DNA of 64,000 nucleotides from Acidobacteriaceae bacterium (lineage in GTDB: Bacteria; Acidobacteriota; Terriglobia; Bryobacterales; Bryobacteraceae). This document shows, piece by piece, positions 620-37,775 of this stretch (its first letter is position 1; each line of letters starts with the position of its first letter). The stretch is from the NCBI GenBank assembly GCA_019240405.1, contig JAFAYL010000038.1:62001-126000 (forward strand). Reading direction: 5' to 3'. The position numbers were made by a program, and so were the translations under genes. The notes under the pieces are model-generated. The model was not told the origin of the DNA and did not search any database. It saw only the letters and a list, made by a program, of their open reading frames with translations.

Positions 620-1332
620 ATGTCGACTCCCGCTCAAATCTCAGCCAACCAAGCCAACGCTCAACTCTCCACCGGCCCCCGTACTCCCGAAGGCAAAGCC
701 GCCTCCGCGCGAAATCACTTCTCGCACGGCCTGTCCGGTTCTCAATTCACCGTTCTCGATTGGGAGCATCAGCACGCCTTCGACGAGCTCCTGCAAAGCC
801 TCGATCTCGAGCACCAACCCGCCACCCCAACCGAACAGATCCTGGTTCGCAAACTGGCCCAGCACTACTGGCTCACCCAGCGCGCCATCACGCTCCAAAA
901 TTCCTGCTTCAAACCCGAGATCGCGCCGGAGGATCCGAAAAGCAGCTCGCTCTCTACCTCCGTTACCAGACCACGCACGACCGAGCCTTCCACAAGAGCC
1001 TCGCTCAGCTCCTAAAGCTCAGAGCGGAAAAGCGCAAAGCCGAAATTGAGTTCGAATCGCAGCAGCGCAAATTAGTTCAGCAAGAAGAACGAGCGCGACG
1101 CCAACAAGCGCGCCTGGAAGCGGAAAATGCCCGCCAGGCGGCCGACCACGCCCGCCGGGAAGCCGCCGAAAAGCGCAAGCAGGACATGCACCGCTTCGAC
1201 ATTATGTTCCGCCAGGCCGAAATGGATCACCAGATCTCGAAAACCAACATGCTGCAAATGGACAGAATCGCCGCAGAACTTCGCGCCGAAGAGGCAGCAG
1301 AAAGGCCCATCCGCCCGCAAAAGGCCGCATAG
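620..1332 (+). pseudogene. Frameshifted hypothetical protein: N-terminus MSTPAQISANQANAQLSTGPRTPEGKAASARNHFSHGL in one frame, C-terminus LYLRYQTTHDRAFHKSLAQLLKLRAEKRKAEIEFESQ... in another
   Basis: The coding signal moves from the frame of ORF 392-1015 to the frame of ORF 760-1332 around the GAAAAG run at about 937-942; the two halves resemble one widespread Acidobacteriota hypothetical family. Confidence 0.6.
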
Positions 1333-1365
1333 CTCTTGAACCCCACAACTGAACCGATTTGTAGG

Positions 1366-1383
1366 GTGCGGGCATGCCCGCAC
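1366..1383. repeat. Perfect 18-bp palindrome GTGCGGGCATGCCCGCAC (REP-like)
   Basis: Read directly; intergenic, 33 bp downstream of the frameshifted gene. Confidence 0.6.
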
Positions 1384-1422
1384 GAAGAGATCAGCGGGGT
1401 GAACCGTTATCGGCCATTCGCT

Positions 1423-1983
1423 TTATGGAAGTACCGAAAAGATCTCCGATACGCGAATCCCGAGCTGGGGAAGCGGATGGGGCAACATGACAGTTTCGCC
1501 GTTGCGGAATTCCCTGCTCGTGTCCTCGGATTCCCACACGGTGGTGGTGCGTGTTTTTGGATAAACAACCCACACAGCCGATGAGCCATGACGAAGATAA
1601 AGTCTGATCTTCTTCAGGAGTTCCTTTTTTGTATTTCCGGGCGAGACGACCTCAACCGCCAACTCTGGAGCCCCGGCGGGGAACACATCGCGCTCGGCTG
1701 CAGCCAAGAACCGCCGTCGGTCCATCACAAACGCGTCTGGCCGCGGCATGCTGACCGGGTTCGAAGCATCCAGGACAATGCTCAAATCCGAGTTAACCTC
1801 GAAATCTGCGCCCTCGAGCATTTCATCAAGCAGTCGCACGAGTCTCTTAATCACAAGCGCATGTCTAGGGGATCCCGACGGCGAAATGACTATTTCTCCC
1901 TCGATGAGCTCATCCTTTGTCCCCTCCGGCGCTTCAAAACTGAGGTAGTCTTCCATCGAGACCGTGAGTGATGTGGTACCCAT
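1423..1983 (-). CDS. Uma2 family (putative restriction-endonuclease-fold) protein
   Basis: MGTTSLTVSMEDYLSFE...DELIEGEIVISPSGSPRHALVIKRL...RPDAFV...PELAVEVVSPGNTKKELLKKIRLYLRHG is typical of Uma2; start trimmed to the ATG at 1983 because upstream codons run through the tRNA. Confidence 0.85.
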   Translation of the reverse strand: MGTTSLTVSMEDYLSFEAPEGTKDELIEGEIVISPSGSPRHALVIKRLVRLLDEMLEGADFEVNSDLSIVLDASNPVSMPRPDAFVMDRRRFLAAAERDVFPAGAPELAVEVVSPGNTKKELLKKIRLYLRHGSSAVWVVYPKTRTTTVWESEDTSREFRNGETVMLPHPLPQLGIRVSEIFSVLP

Positions 1984-2020
1984 AGGGGAACTCCGTTCAG
2001 CATCTTGATTATACGGATTT

Positions 2021-2097
2021 TGGCGCGCCCGGAGAGACTCGAACTCCCGACCTGCTGATTCGAAGTCAGACGCTCTATCCACCTGAGCTACGGGCGC
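2021..2097 (-). tRNA. tRNA-Arg, anticodon TCG, with encoded CCA
   Basis: Reverse complement GCGCCCGTAGCTCAGGTGGATAGAGCGTCTGACTTCGAATCAGCAGGTCGGGAGTTCGAGTCTCTCCGGGCGCGCCA folds as a cloverleaf; loop CTTCGAA gives anticodon TCG. Confidence 0.93.
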
Positions 2098-2185
2098 GCG
2101 CTGGCTGCTTAAGGTATGGCCTCCATTATACGCATGGGAAAATTCAAGCAGGATCCCCATACATTCGCAGATCTGATTTTCAAAA

Positions 2186-2746
2186 ATGAAGCCGGCTGAA
2201 GAAACAGAAGTCAAAATCAGGCTCTCCGACCGCAATTCGGTGTTCGACTCGCTCAAACGCTTGGGCCTCGGGATTTCCGTTGCGCGCCAGTTCGAATCGA
2301 ACGCTCTCTACGATACAGATGATCAAACGCTTCGTCGAAAAAGTATGCTCCTGCGTCTCAGGCAGGTCGGCGATATGTCTCTGATTACCTGGAAAGGCCC
2401 CGGCGCAAGCAGCGCATACAAGGTCCGTCCGGAGCTAGAAACCAGCATCGGCTCGCTCGAAACATTCGCCCGAATCCTGTCTCAGCTTGGGTACCACGTC
2501 ACGTTTCGTTATGAGAAATATCGCACCGAATTCGAGGACAACAAGCGCGTCGGAACCGTGACTCTGGACGAAACTCCTATTGGCGATTTTCTCGAGTTAG
2601 AAGGACCTGGCGAATGGATTGATGAGACCGCGCGAGCCCTTGGATTCTCGCGAAAAGATTATGTGCTGGAGAGCTATGCAGGGCTTTATCTGGAACATTG
2701 CCGGCGCCGCGGCCTGGAACCCAGCTATATGGTGTTCGCGTCCTAA
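2186..2746 (+). CDS. Class IV adenylate cyclase / CYTH domain protein
   Basis: EVKIRL near the N-terminus, LRRKSMLLRLRQ, TWKGP, YEKYRTEF, LDETPIGDFLELEG CYTH signature. Confidence 0.85.
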   Translation: MKPAEETEVKIRLSDRNSVFDSLKRLGLGISVARQFESNALYDTDDQTLRRKSMLLRLRQVGDMSLITWKGPGASSAYKVRPELETSIGSLETFARILSQLGYHVTFRYEKYRTEFEDNKRVGTVTLDETPIGDFLELEGPGEWIDETARALGFSRKDYVLESYAGLYLEHCRRRGLEPSYMVFAS

Positions 2747-2832
2747 AGCACAAGAGTGCCGCAGTGAGGAGAAGTGACTCTAGAATCCCGCGAAGTAACA
2801 GTACAGCAACTCTGCTCTAGAATGATTTGAAA

Positions 2833-3841
<1,009 letters not shown>

Positions 3842-3849
<8 letters not shown>

Positions 3850-4735
3850 ACCGCTCATCGATAAGCAATTCCTTGAACGGCTGGAGTTGCTGACACTGCA
3901 CTGGCAGAAATCATTCAATGGTCTCGTCGGTGGGCATAACGTCTCGCAGTTTGCAGGGCCAGGGCAAGAGTTTCTGGAGCACCGCAATTTTCATCATGGA
4001 GATGATCTGCGCGCTGTCAACTGGCGTGCATATTTGCGATTTGAAAAGCTGTTTCTCAAAATGTTTCAGGTTGAGCCTCGCGTACCGGTCCGTTTGCTCT
4101 TGGATACGAGCGCGTCGATGCTCGCTGGCAGCGGTACCGCGGAGCCGTCTAAATTCGATTACGCGCGAAAGCTCGCGGCTGCGCTAATCTACGTCGGGTT
4201 GGTCCGGCTCGATAGCATCGTGCTCCAGCCATTCTCAGACTGCTTGCTCGACCGCTGTGTATCTAGCGGCGGCCGCCATCGTTTTCAGCCCGCCGAAAGC
4301 TATCTACGCGAATTGAAGGCGGAAGGTAAAACCGATTTTCTTGAAGTAGCGCGCCAATTCCTAAGCACGTACCCGCAGCGCGGGCTGGCTATCATTATTT
4401 CGGATTTTCTTGCCGAGTCGGATTGCCTCCGCCCGCTGCAGTACATCGCCGACTTCGGGCACGAACTTTTTTTGGTCCAATTGTGGGGTGAGGAAGATCG
4501 CCGGCCGAGCGGTGATTCGGAAACAGAACTGATCGATATCGAATCAGGCGTTTGCGTCAAGATTGTGCTTGATCGCGAGGCGTGCGAATCCTACACGCAG
4601 GCCTTTGATGGATATGCCGAAGGAGTAAAGAGGCTGGCTCTGCGCAATGGCGGCCGCTACGCTGGATTTTCAATACAGGTGTCGATCGAAGAGGCCATCT
4701 TTGGCGCTCTGACAACAGCCGAAAACTCTCGTTGA
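3842..4735 (+). CDS. DUF58 domain-containing protein
   Basis: GPGQEFLEHRNFHHGDDLRAVNWRAYLR; overlaps the moxR end by 8 bp. Confidence 0.9.
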
Positions 4736-27234: not shown

Positions 27235-28143
27235 TCAGGCTAGATTTTTGAGACTCTGCTGCAGAAGGCGTTGCGTTCCCTCGTACGGGTCTCCAATGCC
27301 TTCCCATTCGATTGAGAAATAGCCGCGGTAGCCAGACTTCTTAGCGACGGCGAAGATCCGGTCCACGTTGACGCGATAGGTTTTGCCGTCATCGTGTTCC
27401 TCGTCTTTCACATGACTGATATTAAACGCGTGCGCGAATAATGACTGCATTGCACTTTCGTTATATTGTTCGTCATTCTTAATCAGCATCGAATTGCAGA
27501 AGTCGGGAAGAGCGCGAAGATAGGGAGTGTTCGCAGTTTGAATGATTCGAACGATGCGCGAGGGATCCTCCGCGCGGGGCTCGTCGTTTTCAAGGTTGAT
27601 CACAATATTCTTTTTTGAGCCATACTCGGCAAGCGCTTCGAGGTTTTGCACGGCGCAATCGAGGTCACCTTCGGGCGCGTGGACGCGAACTCCCGGAGAG
27701 CCCAGGGTTACGGCGGCATCGACCCATTTTCTGTAGAGGGTTTGCCCAGCCTCGCGATCTTCGGAGCTGGAGCCGCATAGTTTGACAGGCGCATCCACTG
27801 GAATATTCACGACACGGAGGCCCGCCGCTTTGAACGCGCGGCTCAAATCCCGCAGGTAAGCGGCGTCAAGCGATTCGAAATGCTTGCTCCAAGGCTCGAT
27901 GCCGGTCACTTGTAACCGGGTCGGAAGGGCTTGCGCGAATTGGGCCAAAGTCATGCCGGGTTTGCTCTTGTCGCGATCCTCAGCTTCAGGCGAATCGATG
28001 AAAGCGCGAAACGGGTAAGAAGATACGGCTAGCCTTTGGCGCGGATCGGTGGGGAAGTTCGCCGGTGGCTCGGCGGATTTCAAGGAAGTTGCCATAACGA
28101 AAGAGAACCCCAGAAACTCGCGCCTTCCGATTTTGAATCGCAT
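27235..28143 (-). CDS. Sugar phosphate isomerase/epimerase family (TIM barrel)
   Basis: RREFLGFSFVMA N-terminus; VINLENDEP...; FSIEWEGIGDPYEGTQRLLQQSL. Confidence 0.83.
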   Translation of the reverse strand: MRFKIGRREFLGFSFVMATSLKSAEPPANFPTDPRQRLAVSSYPFRAFIDSPEAEDRDKSKPGMTLAQFAQALPTRLQVTGIEPWSKHFESLDAAYLRDLSRAFKAAGLRVVNIPVDAPVKLCGSSSEDREAGQTLYRKWVDAAVTLGSPGVRVHAPEGDLDCAVQNLEALAEYGSKKNIVINLENDEPRAEDPSRIVRIIQTANTPYLRALPDFCNSMLIKNDEQYNESAMQSLFAHAFNISHVKDEEHDDGKTYRVNVDRIFAVAKKSGYRGYFSIEWEGIGDPYEGTQRLLQQSLKNLA

Positions 28144-28160
28144 GCGTTTCCTTTCTCAAG

Positions 28161-29105
28161 CTAACTTATTGGGCGGTGTGCCAAAAACGGCCATGCTGCT
28201 CCTGCGAGCGTCGCCATGGGTCCTAATTCGGCTCGACATAACGAAGCGCGAGCTTGCGCAAACAGGCTGGCTGAGCTCTGAAAGCTGCCCTTAGCCGGCT
28301 TGAGGATCAAATCTCCCGCTGCGGATAATCCTCCGGCGATGGCGATTCGATCCGGAAAGAAGATATTCGCCATGGAGGCGGCTGCGAGTCCCAACCATTC
28401 ACCGGCATTAGAGAGAACCGAAATAGCGATCTCATCGCTGTTCTCAGCAGCCGAAATGACATCGCGCAGAGAAACGTTGGGAACGGCTCTCGTTCTTTCC
28501 CGATATTGCTGTGCCAGAGCAGGCGCCGAAACAAGAATCTCAGCGCATCCTCGTCCGCCACAGGTACAGAGGGGGCCATTGCGCTCAAGGATGACGTGTC
28601 CGATATCGCCGAGGCACTCGTAAGCGAACCGTAACGGCACCCCCTTAATTGCCATGCCGACACCCAGGCCCGTGCCCGCCGCAATACAAAGAAAACGATC
28701 GGATCCCCGGCCGGAACCGAAGCAGTATTCGGCCATGCAGGCAGCGTTCGAATCGACCTCAATTTCCACTCGCATCGGGAAGTGCTTCGCAAGGTAATCT
28801 CGCAGGGGATAATTCTCGAGCCAGGGAAGATTAGAGTTGTAGATCATCGTTGTGCGCTCGGGGTTGAGAAATCCCGCCACCGCTACCCCGAGGCCGATGC
28901 ACGCCGTTTCTTGCGCGCATGCGGCCTGATGCACACGCTCGATGAGGGCTGAAAGTTCGTTGCCGAAGCGTTCCGGATTGGGGCCGCCCGTTGGAATGGA
29001 TTGGAGCCCGCTCAGCTCGCCCGTCGAGTTAACAAGCCCAGCCTTGGTAGACGTCCCGCCTATGTCAACGCATAGGACAGATTCTGCTTCGGCTCGATGT
29101 GCCAT
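28161..29105 (-). CDS. ROK family sugar kinase/regulator
   Basis: VLCVDIGGTSTKAGLVN; AAGTGLGVGMAIKG; GDIGHVILERNGPLCTCGGRGCAEIL. Confidence 0.92.
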   Translation of the reverse strand: MAHRAEAESVLCVDIGGTSTKAGLVNSTGELSGLQSIPTGGPNPERFGNELSALIERVHQAACAQETACIGLGVAVAGFLNPERTTMIYNSNLPWLENYPLRDYLAKHFPMRVEIEVDSNAACMAEYCFGSGRGSDRFLCIAAGTGLGVGMAIKGVPLRFAYECLGDIGHVILERNGPLCTCGGRGCAEILVSAPALAQQYRERTRAVPNVSLRDVISAAENSDEIAISVLSNAGEWLGLAAASMANIFFPDRIAIAGGLSAAGDLILKPAKGSFQSSASLFAQARASLCRAELGPMATLAGAAWPFLAHRPIS

Positions 29106-29110
29106 CAAAA

Positions 29111-30202
29111 TTACACGTGGCCGCCGAAACCGATTTCGGACATTGTGACTTGCGGAGCATGCCGGAACTGGCCGGGAATGACTCCCCGTATCTCCGCCAA
29201 TCGATATGCGGCAATTTGCATGGGAATGGTTCCCACGGCAGGAGCGAATCGATTGGAGACACAAGCGGGCCAAGGGCAGAGAGGAGTAGCTTTGTATTCT
29301 TTTACAGCCGGTCCCAACCAGCGCGCGATTCCGTTCATCTCACTGATATCGTGCGCGAGCGCCGCGTCGAGATCCACAGTGGAAGAGTGAAGACCGAAAA
29401 TGACGGCATGGAATCGCCGGTCGACTACTTCAACCGGGCCGTGTCTGAAATTCCCCGCTTCCATTCCGAGGGCGGAAGTCTTCGCGACTTCGTGAAACAG
29501 GAGCACACCCGCATGAACGGCTGCAAGAGAAACGCCACGGCCGAGCAGATAGAGAGGGGATGCAGATTGCAGAAAGGAAGACCAGTGCTCACTCGAATCC
29601 AGGCATTGAGGAATCCACACTCTAAGCGAGTCCGCGAGGGTTTCGAGCTCTGAGTACAAGCTAGAATCTATTTCGCCGCAGACAGCTGCGCCCAAAAGCA
29701 GCAAGACAATCAAGGTCGCGGTATAGGTTTGAATGGCCACGAACTGATCAGGCGGACTCTGTAGGACCAGGCATTCGGTTGCATTCGACGCAAGTGTGCT
29801 GCCGTGAACGTTTGTCACGCCTATTACGGTTGCGCCTCGTTCCCGCAAGATGCGGAGTAGCTTCGTGACTTCCACTGTTTCGCCGGAGCGCGAAACGAGG
29901 ATAACGGTCGTGTCTTGGTCGAGGGCTGCGGCGTAGGAGTGCAAGAGCTCAGATGTTTCGATCACCGGCGCAAACATTCCTTGTGCAGCGAGATAATGGC
30001 TCAGTGGAATGCATGCGAAGAGCGAGCCGCCCATTCCGCTCAAAATAAGGCGGCCGCGGCGGGACTGCAGTAGAGCCCCTGAGCGAAACAGTGCTGCATG
30101 GCCCTCGCCGAATTGATAGGCCGCGGCGGTTCGAATCGCCTCGGGTTGAGCGAGGATATTTTCGACCAGAGGAACGCTTATTTGTCTTTTCTGGTTAACC
30201 AT
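29111..30202 (-). CDS. SIS domain sugar isomerase/aminotransferase-like protein
   Basis: LILSGMGGSLFACIPLSHYLA; VILVSRSGETVEVTKLLRIL; GMEAGNFRHGPVEVV. Confidence 0.87.
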   Translation of the reverse strand: MVNQKRQISVPLVENILAQPEAIRTAAAYQFGEGHAALFRSGALLQSRRGRLILSGMGGSLFACIPLSHYLAAQGMFAPVIETSELLHSYAAALDQDTTVILVSRSGETVEVTKLLRILRERGATVIGVTNVHGSTLASNATECLVLQSPPDQFVAIQTYTATLIVLLLLGAAVCGEIDSSLYSELETLADSLRVWIPQCLDSSEHWSSFLQSASPLYLLGRGVSLAAVHAGVLLFHEVAKTSALGMEAGNFRHGPVEVVDRRFHAVIFGLHSSTVDLDAALAHDISEMNGIARWLGPAVKEYKATPLCPWPACVSNRFAPAVGTIPMQIAAYRLAEIRGVIPGQFRHAPQVTMSEIGFGGHV

Positions 30203-31278
30203 TCGTCGATCGGCATTTTGGTCTGGGGCTTGTATGGAATTTTGACCTTCTCGCCCAATCCTGCTGAAGCATAAGCAGCGTACAGAACTTCCATTACAAC
30301 TCGGCCGTCCTCACCAGTGCCTTTTGGCGTCTCTTTGCCGCGTACGCAGCGGGCGAAGTGGTGCAACTCCTGCGGCGTGCCGTAGTTCCAAAGCTCTTCG
30401 TAAACCGGATAGCTCCACCCCTTAGTGGTCGGCGCTTTTTCTACGGCATAGGTGAATCCGTACTCGCTATACGTTGGGAGAGCATTTCCCATGTGCAGAT
30501 CCGCATACGTTACGCCGCCTTCGCCGTAGACCTCAACGCGGTCGTACATGCCGCCGCGGCGCGCCCAACTATTCTCAACCAGGCCGACGGCTCCGTTCTC
30601 GAACTCCAGAATGCAGAGCGCATCGTCATCGCCTTTGGTTTTATCGGCGTGAACATAGGTTCCAAGCTGACTGTAGACGGTCGTGATGCGCGGCCTTCCG
30701 AGAAACCAATAACAGAACGCAATGCCATGGCAGCCAAGATCCATCAATGCGCCGCCACCGGAACGCTTGACGTCCCAGAACCATTCGCTATGCGGGCCGA
30801 AATGCTTCTCGCTTTGTTTGACGAGATAAATTTTGCCGAGCCCTCCCTGATCCGCCATTTCTTTGGCCTTCAGGTACTTCGGCGTGAAGAACAGTTCTTC
30901 GCCATACATGAGCAGGACGCCTTGTTTTTTGCACGTGTCGATCATCTGATCGGCTTCTTCGAGCGTGACGCAAAGCGGTTTTTCGCACATCACGTGCTTG
31001 CCGGATTTGGCAATGTCGATGGTCATGGGCGCGTGCAGATAATTCGGCGCGGTAATGCAGACGAGCTCGATATCCGACTCGCGCAGCATTTGGCGGTAAT
31101 CGTGGAAGACACGCGGGATGTGATATTTTTCGGCCAGCTCCTCGGGATGTCTCGGAGTTGGCGAAGTCACGGCGACGAGCTCCGCTTCCTCAGGCATGAT
31201 GTGGAAGGAGGCGGCGAGAATATCCGCTTGAAATTGCGAACCGATGATTGCAGCCTTTACTTTTCCTGTTGTGGGCAT
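30178..31278 (-). CDS. Gfo/Idh/MocA family oxidoreductase
   Basis: KAAIIGSQFQADILAASF; GKHVMCEKPLCVTLEEADQMI. Confidence 0.92.
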   Translation of the reverse strand: MPTTGKVKAAIIGSQFQADILAASFHIMPEEAELVAVTSPTPRHPEELAEKYHIPRVFHDYRQMLRESDIELVCITAPNYLHAPMTIDIAKSGKHVMCEKPLCVTLEEADQMIDTCKKQGVLLMYGEELFFTPKYLKAKEMADQGGLGKIYLVKQSEKHFGPHSEWFWDVKRSGGGALMDLGCHGIAFCYWFLGRPRITTVYSQLGTYVHADKTKGDDDALCILEFENGAVGLVENSWARRGGMYDRVEVYGEGGVTYADLHMGNALPTYSEYGFTYAVEKAPTTKGWSYPVYEELWNYGTPQELHHFARCVRGKETPKGTGEDGRVVMEVLYAAYASAGLGEKVKIPYKPQTKMPIDEWLTRKDK

Positions 31279-31330
31279 AGACGTTTCGTATTGTCGCTCA
31301 GGCGTGTGCGAGGGTCGCGCACGAGTCGAT

Positions 31331-32335
31331 TCACCTGGAAGAAGCCGGTCCAGTAGATTGGCGGACCACTAGTTCCGTTTCCACGGTTTGCTCGATACCG
31401 AGATGGCGTTTCGTTTTCAGCATCCGCTCGAGAGTTTCGAAACAAAGTTTTCCGAGCCGGTCTCTCGGAACGCGGATGGTGGTGAGGGGCGGGTTTAGGT
31501 ATCGAGCGAACAATACGTCGTCCGCGCCGATCACGGAGATATCTTCCGGGACTCTGAAACCCAGACCGAACGCGGCACTCATTGCGCCGATAGCCATTCG
31601 ATCATTTCCGCAGAGAAGCGCTGTTGGCCGGTTCGGGGAGCTCAGCAAGTCTCTCGCCGCCGCAGCCCCGCTTTCAGGCCGGTTATCTCCTTCGATAACA
31701 CGAAAGGGCTCACACCTGACCTGTCTTAGCGCGGATATCAAATTCTCGCGGTGCGTAGAAGCCGAGATGCGGTTAATCGGACCAGTTATGACAGCAATGG
31801 CGCGATGCCCCAGATCACCCAGGTGTTTCACTGCTTCTGAAATTCCATGCGAATAATTAACCGCTATGTTGCTCCGACCCGCGCGCTTGGGAGGAGAATC
31901 GAGCAAGACGAGCGGAAGGTGATTACCGGCGAGCTGGGCAAGCAGATCGCTATCGAGCTGAGATGTCATGATCGCCACGCCGCGCACCCGGCTTTCGAGC
32001 ATTCGACGCACGGCTTTCTGCGCTTGATCGCGGGCATAATTCGTCGTGCAGAGAATGGTCTCCATGCCCCTTGATAAGCAGGCCTGCTCAAAACTTTTAA
32101 TGAGCTCCGGAAAGAATGGATTTTCAATGTCCGAAATAATTAACCCGAACGAGTTGCTTTCGCCACGTACGAGGAGCCGGGCGGACGCGTTTTTGTAATA
32201 GCTCAGCTCACGGACGGCACTCAGCACGCGATCCCGGGTGTAACGGGCGACAGGCCGTGTCTCATTGATCACATGGGAGACCGTAGTCACCGAGACACCC
32301 GCTTTTCGGGCGACGTCGCTCATTCCAATGGGCAT
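31331..32335 (-). CDS. LacI family transcriptional regulator
   Basis: MSDVARKAGVSVTTVSHVINETRPVARYTRDRVLSAVRELSYYKNASARLL HTH; periplasmic-binding-protein-like effector domain. Confidence 0.95.
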   Translation of the reverse strand: MPIGMSDVARKAGVSVTTVSHVINETRPVARYTRDRVLSAVRELSYYKNASARLLVRGESNSFGLIISDIENPFFPELIKSFEQACLSRGMETILCTTNYARDQAQKAVRRMLESRVRGVAIMTSQLDSDLLAQLAGNHLPLVLLDSPPKRAGRSNIAVNYSHGISEAVKHLGDLGHRAIAVITGPINRISASTHRENLISALRQVRCEPFRVIEGDNRPESGAAAARDLLSSPNRPTALLCGNDRMAIGAMSAAFGLGFRVPEDISVIGADDVLFARYLNPPLTTIRVPRDRLGKLCFETLERMLKTKRHLGIEQTVETELVVRQSTGPASSR

Positions 32336-32339
32336 ATTC

Positions 32340-32364
32340 GCAAACGTTTGCCGCAAACGTTTGC
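32340..32364. promoter_or_regulatory. Tandem LacI-type operators GCAAACGTTTGC x2 (32340-32351 and 32353-32364)
   Basis: Two perfect 12-bp palindromes with 13-bp spacing, immediately upstream of the lacI-family start codon. Confidence 0.85.
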
Positions 32365-32367
32365 ATC

Positions 32368-32397
32368 AGTATAGAACCGGAGGAAGGGAATTGCCAA
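32368..32397 (-). promoter_or_regulatory. Candidate lacI-family promoter TTGGCA-N18-TATACT
   Basis: Minus strand: -35 at 32392-32397, -10 at 32368-32373, predicted start within the tandem operators. Confidence 0.6.
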
Positions 32398-32406
32398 CGT
32401 TTTCTC

Positions 32407-32435
32407 TTGACACCCGGTCAGCCTGAACCTATATT
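32407..32435 (+). promoter_or_regulatory. Candidate sigma70 promoter TTGACA-N17-TATATT for the TonB receptor
   Basis: -35 at 32407-32412, -10 at 32430-32435, exact consensus -35 and 17-bp spacer. Confidence 0.65.
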
Positions 32436-32462
32436 GCTAAACAGCATTACTGCGTTTGAAGC

Positions 32463-32474
32463 GCAAACGCTTGC
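32463..32474. promoter_or_regulatory. Third LacI-type operator GCAAACGCTTGC (one mismatch)
   Basis: Same 12-bp motif with one change, about 20 bp downstream of the predicted TonB-receptor transcription start. Confidence 0.65.
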
Positions 32475-32511: not shown

Positions 32512-35500
32512 ATGAGGTTTGTTCGCAACTGCGCAATTATAGGGCTGGTAAGTTTTCTCACCGCCGCAATCGCGTCATCACAGACTGGAGATGGATCGAT
32601 TGCCGGGAACGTGCGTGACAGCAGTGGCGGGGCTATCCCGAACGCCAGCGTAGAAGTTTCGAGCGTCGAGCAAGGCTTCACGCGTACGACAACCTCAAAC
32701 GCAAGCGGCGATTATCTGGTTGCGGGACTTCCTCCAGGCGCTTACAACGTCACCGTCACTGCAAAAGGCTTTGAGAAATTCAATGTAACGAATCTGATAT
32801 TGCGCGTAGCGGAGAAGGCCCGCGCAGATGCCACTCTGACGGTTGGCGCGATAAGCACTGAGGTGACAGTGGCTGGGACGAACGTGGCCGCTGTGGAAAC
32901 CGAATCCTCCGAACTCTCCGGCGTCGTAACAGGCAAGCAGATCGATCAACTGGTTCTGAACGGCCGAAATTTCACACAACTGGTGACGCTCGTGCCCGGG
33001 GTGAGCAATCAAACCGGCCAGGACGAAGGACAAGTTGGCGTGTATGGGAACGTGGCCTACAGCATTAACGGCGGTCGCAACGAGTACAACAACTGGGAAC
33101 TCGATGGCGGCGACAACATGGATAACGGAAGCAATTCCACTCTGAATGTCTACCCAAATGTCGACGCGATTGCAGAGTTCAAAGTATTGACCTCGAACTA
33201 TGGTGCTCAATACGGGCGCAATGGATCGGGAACGATTGAAACCGTTACGAAGTCCGGCACGCGTGAGTTCCACGGGGATCTTTTTGAATTCGTGCGCAAC
33301 GAAGATTTCAACGCACGCGGCTTCTTCCAAACCACGCGACCGGCTTACAAGAAGAATGACTACGGCTATACGATCGGCGGCCCGGTCTTTATTCCCAAGC
33401 TGTATAACACGGGCCGGCAGAAGACATTCTTCTTTTTTTCAGAAGACTGGCACAGAGATCGCGTTCCCGGCCAAACCTATCACCAACAGACGGCGCCTGC
33501 TGCAGAACGAAGTGGCAACTTCAATGATGTATGCCCCGGCCCGGACTGTCCGATAAATCCGGCTACCCACGCTCCGTTTCCCGGTAATCAGGTCCCGGTC
33601 GATCCGAACGCGCAAATCCTACTCGGCCTGATTCCAGCGCCGAATGCGGGAGCTGGGACAGAATCCTTCTTTAACGCGGCTCCCGTGACTCCCACGAACT
33701 GGCGTCAGGAGTTAGCGCGCGTGGATGAGAATTTTAGCGACAAGGTACGGTTCTTCTACCGTTTTACACACGATTCCTGGAACACTGTCGTACCCAACCC
33801 TCTTTGGGGTAATGCCACCAACAGCTTTCCTACCGTGCAAACCACGTTTGTCGGCCCGGGCGTTTCGATGGTGGCGAATTTGGCGATCAGCGCTTCGCCC
33901 ACTCTGCTGAATGAAACTGTGTTCAGCTACACCACCGATCACATTTTTCTGAATGCACTGGGCAATGCTTCCGTGCCCTCGAACTTTACGATGAAAGGTC
34001 TCTACAACAACGGTTTCGGAGGCCTTCTACCGGCTGTGGAAATTCTCAATGGGACGCCATACGGCGGCGGCTTTGGCGTGGACACGGGTTATTTCCCGTG
34101 GAACAATGCCAATCCCACTTACACATATAAAGACCAATTGACGAAGATTATGGGCGCTCATAATCTCTATTTCGGAGCCTACGTTGTATTGGCGGAAAAG
34201 AATGAAGACAACAGCCCCCAACTCCAGGGCATTCTTAATTTCAGCAACACGTCGAAATTTTCTACGGGAAACGCATTTGCCGACTTTCTGACTGGTCGTA
34301 TCGCCTCATACCAGCAGACGAACGCGAAGATCAAGTACTACAATCGCTACAAAATCGTAGAGCCGTATTTTCAAGACGACTGGCATGTCACGAAGAAGCT
34401 GACTCTCAACCTCGGTCTTCGACTCAGTCTATTCGGGACGTATCGCGATAAATACAAGGACGCCTATAACTGGGAGCCCGGTCTTTACAATCCGGCTCAG
34501 GCGCCCGCGATTCAAACCAGTGGGCCAGGAGCCGGTGCATTAGTCCCCGGTGTTGGAAACCCCTTCGATGGCATCGTGCAATGCGGAGCGTCGGGCATTC
34601 CTCGCGGATGTGTCGCGGGACATCTCTTCAATCCCGCTCCTCGTTTTGGCTTTGCTTATGATCCCGTCGGCGACGGCAAAACGGCTATCCGCGGTGGATA
34701 CGGCATTTTCTTTGAGCACACGAACGGGAACGAAGGAAACACAGAATCTCTGGAAGGCAGCCCGCCGCTAGTGCTTTCTTCGACTCAGTACAACATCGTC
34801 GGTTATAACGCCGTCGGCGCAGGAGGCTTGGTGTTTCCGCTGGGAGGCGGGTCATTCAAATCAATTCCCACAAAGGCTTACTGGCCATACATGCAGCAAT
34901 GGCATTTCGATGTGCAACGCGATCTCGGTGAACGTACCGTGCTCACGGTTTCGTACGTAGGGAGTAAAGGGACCCATTTAACGGACCAGCGGGATTTCAA
35001 CCAAATCTTCCCGTTACCCGCTAATCTCAACCCGTACCACCCCGGTCAGCCTATCAGCTCGAATGATTGCAGCACGCTGACCGTAAATGGAGTGCCGGTA
35101 ACCGGGCAAGCAGCGGTGAACCTGAACGTTGCTTGCGGAGCCAATCCTAATTTCTATCGGCCCTTCGCCGGGTTCGGCACCATCACGGGATTGGAGGATG
35201 AAGCCAACTCAAGTTATAACGCGATGCAAGTCTCGGCCCGGCATTACATCGGGCATTTGAACGTCAGTCTTGCCTATACTTGGAGCCACTCGATCGATGA
35301 CTCATCGGATCGCGGCGACAATACTTTTGTGAATTCGTACAATCTGGAGAGCACTCGCGCGAGTTCCCAATTCGATCAACGGCATCTGTTGAACATCAGC
35401 TATGTCTACGACCTCCCGTTCTTTACCAAACCGGGACTTCTCCACACGGTATTGGGGGCATGGCAGATATCAGGCTTGATCACGCATCAGAGCGGTACGC

Positions 35501-35997
35501 CTTTCAGCATCATCAACGGAACGTTCGGTGATAGCGCGGGCGTGGGGAACGGCGTCGGAACCGGCTCTTTCGTCAACATTGTTGGGAATCCATACGCTCC
35601 TCCGCCAGTAACGAATGTGCCCGGAATTATAGGACCGCTGCTTTACAATCCTGCCGCTTTTGCGGCTCCCACGGGACTAACTTTCGGAACTGCGGGTCGA
35701 GACATTCTCAATAATCCTTCCCGCACCAACTGGGATGTCGGTTTGTTTAAACACTTTCCACTCCGATCAGAAACTCGTGCGATTGAGTTCCGCGCGGAAG
35801 CGTTCAACGTGCTTAATCACACACAATGGGACAGCGGCGGGCAGGGCGGGAGCGCGGTGAGTAACACAGCGTCTTGCTATGCCGGGCCAAACAACTCAGC
35901 AGGTGATCCAAGCTGTGTCTCCACTTCGACTTTTCTTCATCCGACTGGCGCGCACAACCCACGCATTATGCAGCTTGGGATGAAGTTCCTGTTTTAA
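32512..35997 (+). CDS. TonB-dependent receptor with N-terminal carboxypeptidase-regulatory-like domain (Oar-like)
   Basis: GSIAGNVRDSSGGAIPNASVEV..., plug region QIDQLVLNGRNFTQLVTLVPGV, C-terminal beta-barrel ending MKFLF. Confidence 0.93.
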   Translation: MRFVRNCAIIGLVSFLTAAIASSQTGDGSIAGNVRDSSGGAIPNASVEVSSVEQGFTRTTTSNASGDYLVAGLPPGAYNVTVTAKGFEKFNVTNLILRVAEKARADATLTVGAISTEVTVAGTNVAAVETESSELSGVVTGKQIDQLVLNGRNFTQLVTLVPGVSNQTGQDEGQVGVYGNVAYSINGGRNEYNNWELDGGDNMDNGSNSTLNVYPNVDAIAEFKVLTSNYGAQYGRNGSGTIETVTKSGTREFHGDLFEFVRNEDFNARGFFQTTRPAYKKNDYGYTIGGPVFIPKLYNTGRQKTFFFFSEDWHRDRVPGQTYHQQTAPAAERSGNFNDVCPGPDCPINPATHAPFPGNQVPVDPNAQILLGLIPAPNAGAGTESFFNAAPVTPTNWRQELARVDENFSDKVRFFYRFTHDSWNTVVPNPLWGNATNSFPTVQTTFVGPGVSMVANLAISASPTLLNETVFSYTTDHIFLNALGNASVPSNFTMKGLYNNGFGGLLPAVEILNGTPYGGGFGVDTGYFPWNNANPTYTYKDQLTKIMGAHNLYFGAYVVLAEKNEDNSPQLQGILNFSNTSKFSTGNAFADFLTGRIASYQQTNAKIKYYNRYKIVEPYFQDDWHVTKKLTLNLGLRLSLFGTYRDKYKDAYNWEPGLYNPAQAPAIQTSGPGAGALVPGVGNPFDGIVQCGASGIPRGCVAGHLFNPAPRFGFAYDPVGDGKTAIRGGYGIFFEHTNGNEGNTESLEGSPPLVLSSTQYNIVGYNAVGAGGLVFPLGGGSFKSIPTKAYWPYMQQWHFDVQRDLGERTVLTVSYVGSKGTHLTDQRDFNQIFPLPANLNPYHPGQPISSNDCSTLTVNGVPVTGQAAVNLNVACGANPNFYRPFAGFGTITGLEDEANSSYNAMQVSARHYIGHLNVSLAYTWSHSIDDSSDRGDNTFVNSYNLESTRASSQFDQRHLLNISYVYDLPFFTKPGLLHTVLGAWQISGLITHQSGTPFSIINGTFGDSAGVGNGVGTGSFVNIVGNPYAPPPVTNVPGIIGPLLYNPAAFAAPTGLTFGTAGRDILNNPSRTNWDVGLFKHFPLRSETRAIEFRAEAFNVLNHTQWDSGGQGGSAVSNTASCYAGPNNSAGDPSCVSTSTFLHPTGAHNPRIMQLGMKFLF

Positions 35998-36065: not shown

Positions 36066-37775
<1,710 letters not shown>

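Follow-up and report, generated by a model that had tools for sequence, protein, structure and literature searches.

Genes on both sides of the intergenic region

The window, the 64,000-nucleotide stretch of DNA that we analyzed as a whole, contains two gene sets that diverge from a common intergenic region. On the minus strand, lacI (31331 to 32335), which encodes a LacI-family regulator of 334 residues with the recognition helix VTTVSHVIN, heads a tight row of five genes (27235 to 32335). The second gene encodes a Gfo/Idh/MocA oxidoreductase (30178 to 31278), followed by genes for a SIS-domain sugar-phosphate isomerase/deaminase-like protein similar to the C-terminal part of GlmS (29111 to 30202), a ROK-family sugar kinase (28161 to 29105; the reading frame opens at 29273, with a likely start at ∼29105) and a xylose-isomerase–like TIM-barrel protein (27235 to 28143), likely the last gene of the operon. 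On the plus strand lies the gene for an Oar/TonB-type outer-membrane receptor (32512 to 35997), which combines a carboxypeptidase-regulatory domain with an OMP_b-brl_4 barrel. An FG-GAP/ASPIC-UnbV (CRTAC1-like) gene (36066 to 37775) begins 68 bp past it on the same strand and is probably cotranscribed with it. The SIS and ROK proteins suggest that the substrate is an amino sugar or a related sugar, and the effector of the regulator is probably sugar- or amino-sugar–derived.

Domain analyses revealed that the regulator contains both a LacI helix–turn–helix (HTH; PF00356, 4.4e-16, 58.8 bits against a cut-off of 27) and a periplasmic-binding–like effector domain (PF13377, 3.4e-33). Its best matches in the PDB were the structures of Escherichia coli PurR (E ∼3e-62), to which it aligns end to end, with residues 5 to 328 of 334 matching PurR residues 3 to 330. 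The protein is thus of PurR-like length, and the alignment showed no C-terminal tetramerization segment or helix of the LacI type. Recognition-helix residues 16 to 23 (TTVSHVIN, PurR numbering) are identical to those of PurR, while position 15 is V in the regulator and T in PurR. Judged by its sequence and gene setting, the regulator is not a PurR orthologue: it scored 256 bits against the curated PurR family NF007979, below the cut-off of 501, and no purine genes are found near it, its neighbors being the Gfo/Idh, SIS, ROK, TIM-barrel and receptor genes. The score against the NCBIfam RbsR family was also below threshold (217 bits versus a cut-off of 531).

Predicted promoters and operator copies

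Two back-to-back promoters are predicted between lacI and the receptor gene, both as σ70-like consensus matches, from which the transcription starts were in turn predicted. The lacI operon promoter, TTGGCA-N18-TATACT, lies on the minus strand (32368 to 32397; boxes at 32397 to 32392 and 32373 to 32368), and the receptor promoter, TTGACA-N17-TATATT, on the plus strand (32407 to 32435; boxes at 32407 to 32412 and 32430 to 32435). Their −35 boxes are 9 bp apart. The first-pass annotation of this DNA had given the same boxes and spacings, which we found to be exact. Two promoter-like sites were seen, compared to 0.6 expected in shuffled sequence.

The perfect palindrome GCAAACGTTTGC occurs at 32340 to 32351 (O1) and again at 32353 to 32364 (O2), a 1-bp spacer giving a pitch of 13 bp. 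O2 spans the predicted lacI transcription start and O1 covers ∼+11 to +22 of the predicted transcript; the tandem operators therefore do sit on the predicted start and 5′ leader, as first annotated. A third copy, GCAAACGCTTGC (O3; 32463 to 32474), has one mismatch and stands single, without a partner at 13 bp. It occupies ∼+22 to +33 relative to the predicted transcription start of the receptor gene, in agreement with its earlier placement about 20 bp past this start. A weak copy with two mismatches, GCCAACGTTTTC (32393 to 32404), overlaps the minus-strand −35 box. The coordinates first reported for all four copies were exact. The first-pass annotation had assigned the minus-strand promoter to lacI, which is correct as far as it goes but incomplete, since the same promoter heads the five-gene catabolic operon. 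Because lacI leads this tight row, the tandem operators would control the catabolic operon and not lacI alone.

Both leaders have further features. The lacI leader (32333 to 32364) contains no obvious Shine–Dalgarno sequence, and the operators fill the space expected for it; one lacI orthologue (G049) has GGGGAGG where the operators lie here. In the receptor leader, O3 and the half-site GCGTTTG make up an inverted repeat that resembles a hairpin (GCGTTTG-AAGCG-CAAACGC; 32452 to 32470), in which the half-site lies at a 15-bp rather than a 13-bp pitch.

Given the base composition of the window, the 12-mer GCAAACGTTTGC is expected 0.0036 times per 64 kb; for two perfect copies no more than 30 bp apart, the expectation is ∼6e-9. 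The genome scan for the 12-mer that had been suggested as a check located perfect copies only at 32340 and 32353, the O1 and O2 positions, in the whole 4.45-Mb genome. Copies with at most one mismatch showed no enrichment, either in this genome (16, versus 18 for a reversed-pattern control) or across five relatives (67, versus 73 in the control). The motif is therefore local, with no genome-wide regulon signal, and we rejected a larger regulon argued from these counts. As the sequence class of O3 is not enriched genome-wide, the weight of this copy comes from where it lies and from its conservation. Eight matches with at most two mismatches were found in the window, versus 3.9 expected by chance, and the weak copy at 32393 means little alone. 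None of the four orthologous loci described below has a counterpart of it at the corresponding position, and most of its sequence belongs to the −35 region. Thus, it is probably not an operator, and the earlier proposal that it serves as a fourth one was dropped.

Orthologous loci and the 13-bp pitch

Orthologs of lacI with an intact upstream region were found in four genomes, G011 (61% identity), G010 (59%), G049 (56%) and G181 (56%), and matching operators are present in each of the four intergenic regions, those on the receptor side in 4/4. A fifth orthologue (G270) appears to be N-terminally truncated and has operator sites elsewhere in its cluster. The four loci share a single layout: operator(s), divergent promoter, two back-to-back −35 boxes, lacI promoter, operator(s). 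In these loci and in the window, each −10 box is closely followed by operator sequence that overlaps the predicted transcription start or the leader, and counterparts of both O1 and O3 are kept. The −35 boxes are separated by 8, 9, 17 and 6 bp in the four orthologs. Predicted promoters also stand at the same places, with TTGACA-N18-TATACT (G011, G010), TTGACG-N17-TATAAG (G049) and TTGACA-N16-TAGAAT (G181) on the lacI side, and TTGACA-N17-TATAGT/TATATT in G011/G010, and TTGACA promoters in G049 and G181 too, on the divergent side. The divergent gene is an orthologue of the Oar/TonB-type receptor gene in G011 and, by its N terminus, in G010. As read from the sequence, the divergent frame starts like a ROK kinase in G049 and like a Gfo/Idh oxidoreductase in G181, functions that both occur within the lacI operon of the window. 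A Gfo/Idh gene follows lacI in G011 and G181, and the G011 order of lacI, Gfo/Idh, ROK and TIM barrel is as in the window. More distant homologs (∼43% identity), with IATVSHVLN helices, have no operator sites.

The cluster of the truncated orthologue (L201; G270:C189) encodes SIS, Gfo/Idh and homocysteine-S-methyltransferase–like proteins and carries 13-bp operator pairs at three separate gaps (7024, 9146/9159 and 13077).

To describe the spacing of the sites, we started from 25 anchor sites, which lie in regulon loci of six genomes and were picked by single-site matching or direct upstream inspection, independently of any pair pattern, and allowed partners up to three mismatches. In 21 observations a second site lay exactly 13 bp away, compared to one at most at every other spacing from 10 to 45 bp. 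Similarly, the six genomes have 83 places that match with at most one mismatch, of which 17 belong to 13-bp pairs versus ∼0.1 expected; the remainder look like chance occurrences. The pairs are on the lacI side in the window, on the receptor side in G011 and on both sides in G049 and G181, and further promoters in the neighborhood of an orthologue carry them as well (G049, G270). One locus (L202; G270:C167) has three sites at 13-bp pitch (179, 192 and 205; 179 to 216) upstream of an outer-membrane barrel reading frame (753 to 3920). G010 has single operators only and lacks the 13-bp pair; with O3 also single, the pair is therefore not indispensable. Thus, what is new here, from the sequence comparison, is that sites in this clade come as pairs at exactly 13-bp pitch, the usual form of the site. 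The first-pass annotation had noticed that the tandem operators are adjacent but missed the exact pitch, which recurs in the clade, as a conserved unit.

Within 15 pairs, the G/C beside the spacer changed in 2/30 cases and the outermost G/C in 14/30 (Fisher p = 0.0009). The spacer base itself is G or C in 14/15. One genome supplies eight of the 15 pairs and, with that genome removed, the difference is not significant (junction 1/14 versus outer 5/14, p = 0.16). We therefore regard the better-kept junction bases as a lead rather than a result.

How such a pair is used can be read in two ways. It could provide mutually exclusive seats for one dimer, or a strong seat with a relic partner, a reading that we consider quite possible, though short of even odds. 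Consistent with it, the sites abut, so that the contacts of two dimers overlap; several pairs combine one near-perfect copy with a weaker one; G010 and O3 manage with single sites; and dimers at 13-bp spacing cannot interact according to Ravcheev et al. 2014 (PMC4052901). Against it stand the pitch itself, which is exactly 13 bp across five genomes, when a relic or dosage effect would not fix the spacing, the three-site run in L202 and the rarer changes at the junction. Because the pitch is exact, we lean slightly toward joint rather than alternate use of O1/O2. More tentatively still, and with a rather low likelihood, the recognition unit in this clade may be a composite of 25 bp, nCAAACGTTTGC-S-GCAAACGTTTGn, which two dimers spaced 13 bp apart would read side by side, in a mode so far undescribed.

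Paired sites are not confined to this clade. In a scan over 85,000 species, the spacings of exact CAAACGTTTG pairs clustered at 12 to 13, 17, 20 to 22, 24 and 30 to 33 bp (at least 119 stretches); the 8-kb stretches scanned were not centered on the sites, which weakens any link between pitch class and type of recognition helix. Among the matches listed, abutting pairs at 12 or 13 bp occur in several phyla, LacI genes with a VTTVSH helix lie within ∼4 kb of paired CAAACGTTTG sites in unrelated phyla, and some of the 12-bp pairs belong to β-proteobacterial and Synergistaceae loci that have a VTTVSH-type LacI gene. Also among the matches listed, CAAACGTTTGCGCAAACGTTTG, with a 12-bp pitch, recurs in Chryseobacterium, Acidovorax/Pseudacidovorax, Uliginosibacterium and Synergistaceae (loci including L054, L058, L073, L075, L087, L095, L103, L108 and L111), at ∼140 to 170 bp from the LacI gene in several Chryseobacterium-group loci and in Synergistaceae.

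A candidate switch and its relation to known systems

The most probable reading of the locus, to which we assign a probability of roughly 0.87, is a local autoregulated LacI-family switch, in which the regulator encoded at 31331 to 32335 would act on the GCAAACGTTTGC-type sites to control both divergent promoters. Thus, a LacI-type repressor very probably switches itself, together with the sugar-breakdown operon, and the neighboring outer-membrane receptor. The uniqueness of the sites, the conserved layout and pitch and the match between recognition helix and operator core can be read directly from the DNA, and from these we infer binding, repression as its direction and the existence of an effector. 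Haemophilus influenzae PurR sites include AAGCAAACGTTTGCTA, with the same core as GCAAACGTTTGC (PMC3739930), and Camas et al. 2010 tied residues 15, 16 and 20 to half-site bases 4 to 6 (PMC2978694); the helix–operator core match agrees with this residue–base scheme. Autoregulation and receptor control through LacI-family operators, as originally proposed, are thus supported by a PurR-like helix and by four orthologous loci that keep operators past both promoters. Indeed, the locus has what characterizes a local sugar regulon of the LacI type, namely an even palindrome with a CG center upstream of the regulator's own gene and adjacent catabolic genes.

In the proposed switch, when effector is absent, dimers on O1/O2, acting as a composite operator of 13-bp pitch with presumed co-occupancy of the pair, would lie over the transcription start and leader of the lacI-gfo/idh-SIS-ROK-TIM operon and, in the receptor leader, a dimer bound to O3 would block elongation or clearance at the receptor promoter. 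Both divergent promoters would then be shut, or their polymerases stopped. Effector binding would free the dimers, such that the receptor, the catabolic operon and the repressor come on together; uptake and breakdown would rise together and the repressor would limit itself. The operator positions fit the roadblock or steric control suggested in the first-pass annotation, and the mode of action itself we infer.

The same annotation had raised looping between O3 and O1/O2 across both promoters, in the style of the lac operon. Operators do flank both promoters in 5/5 loci, 92 to 123 bp apart from center to center. However, the alignment with PurR extends to the last few residues of the regulator, and because a protein of this length has no C-terminal extension, looping by a tetramer is unsupported. 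Moreover, the distances differ between species by nonintegral helical turns (110 and 123 bp here; 98/111, 123 and 92 to 118 bp in the orthologs). Looping is therefore improbable, although a version with a helper protein, as for GalR with HU, is conceivable. Use of the sites by another regulator is very improbable: the genome does encode a second LacI-family HTH protein, on contig C42, but its helix differs (TATVSRVLN), no GCAAACGTTTGC-type site lies upstream of its own gene and the sites travel with the orthologs of the adjacent regulator. Least probable of all is action of the repeats in RNA as leader hairpins, for despite self-complementary sequence in both leaders and a terminator-like hairpin flagged at 32452 to 32470, neither leader folds better than shuffled sequence (z = +0.30 and +0.59).

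The local switch thus makes the locus an ordinary, well-supported LacI-family regulon, in which an Oar/TonB receptor would be linked with an operon for the catabolism of a sugar or amino sugar and which helps to annotate an unstudied genome. Its wider interest lies in the 13-bp composite operator, whose spacing was found to be preferred across LacI regulators but could not be reconciled there with known structures (PMC4052901). Among the 1281 LacI regulons reconstructed by Ravcheev et al. 2014 (PMC4052901), 72% are autoregulated; tandem sites occur at 1118 operons, with intersite distances that peak at 13, 22 and 32 bp. The 13-bp class, at 110 operons, has a demonstrated case in E. coli GntR at gntKU and was judged to be nonartefactual yet hard to reconcile with structures, for which a special binding mode was suggested (PMC4052901). 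The 13-bp overlap is therefore already known for LacI regulators, and beyond that study we found no further structural explanation of the pair in the literature. The present clade, nearly confined to this arrangement, offers O1/O2 as a perfect example from nature, O3 and the G010 sites as natural single-site controls and also a triple array, variants that make the question directly testable. If the composite reading is true, these loci would serve to test what lies behind the 13-bp peak, so far unexplained, across the LacI family.

The sites here resemble the overlapping sites of Ravcheev et al. 2014 (PMC4052901) in that two CG-centered palindromes lie 13 bp apart and are conserved in an orthologous group. 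They differ in that a single small clade has the pair as its usual form, the G/C junction is conserved and one array is triple, and in taxa, as the word Acidobacteria is absent from the text of that paper. With E. coli and Haemophilus PurR and β-proteobacterial RbsR, the locus shares the operator core GCAAACGTTTGC and, with PurR, helix residues 16 to 23, a similar length and an end-to-end alignment. In contrast, the regulator has V15 where PurR has T, falls well below both NCBIfam cut-offs and has sugar-catabolic genes and an Oar/TonB receptor gene, rather than purine genes, as its neighbors. Finally, like LacI of the lac operon, it would be an autoregulated sugar-type repressor with several operators around its promoters, but it lacks the tetramerization tail and works, as we propose, on divergent twin promoters with abutting operators.
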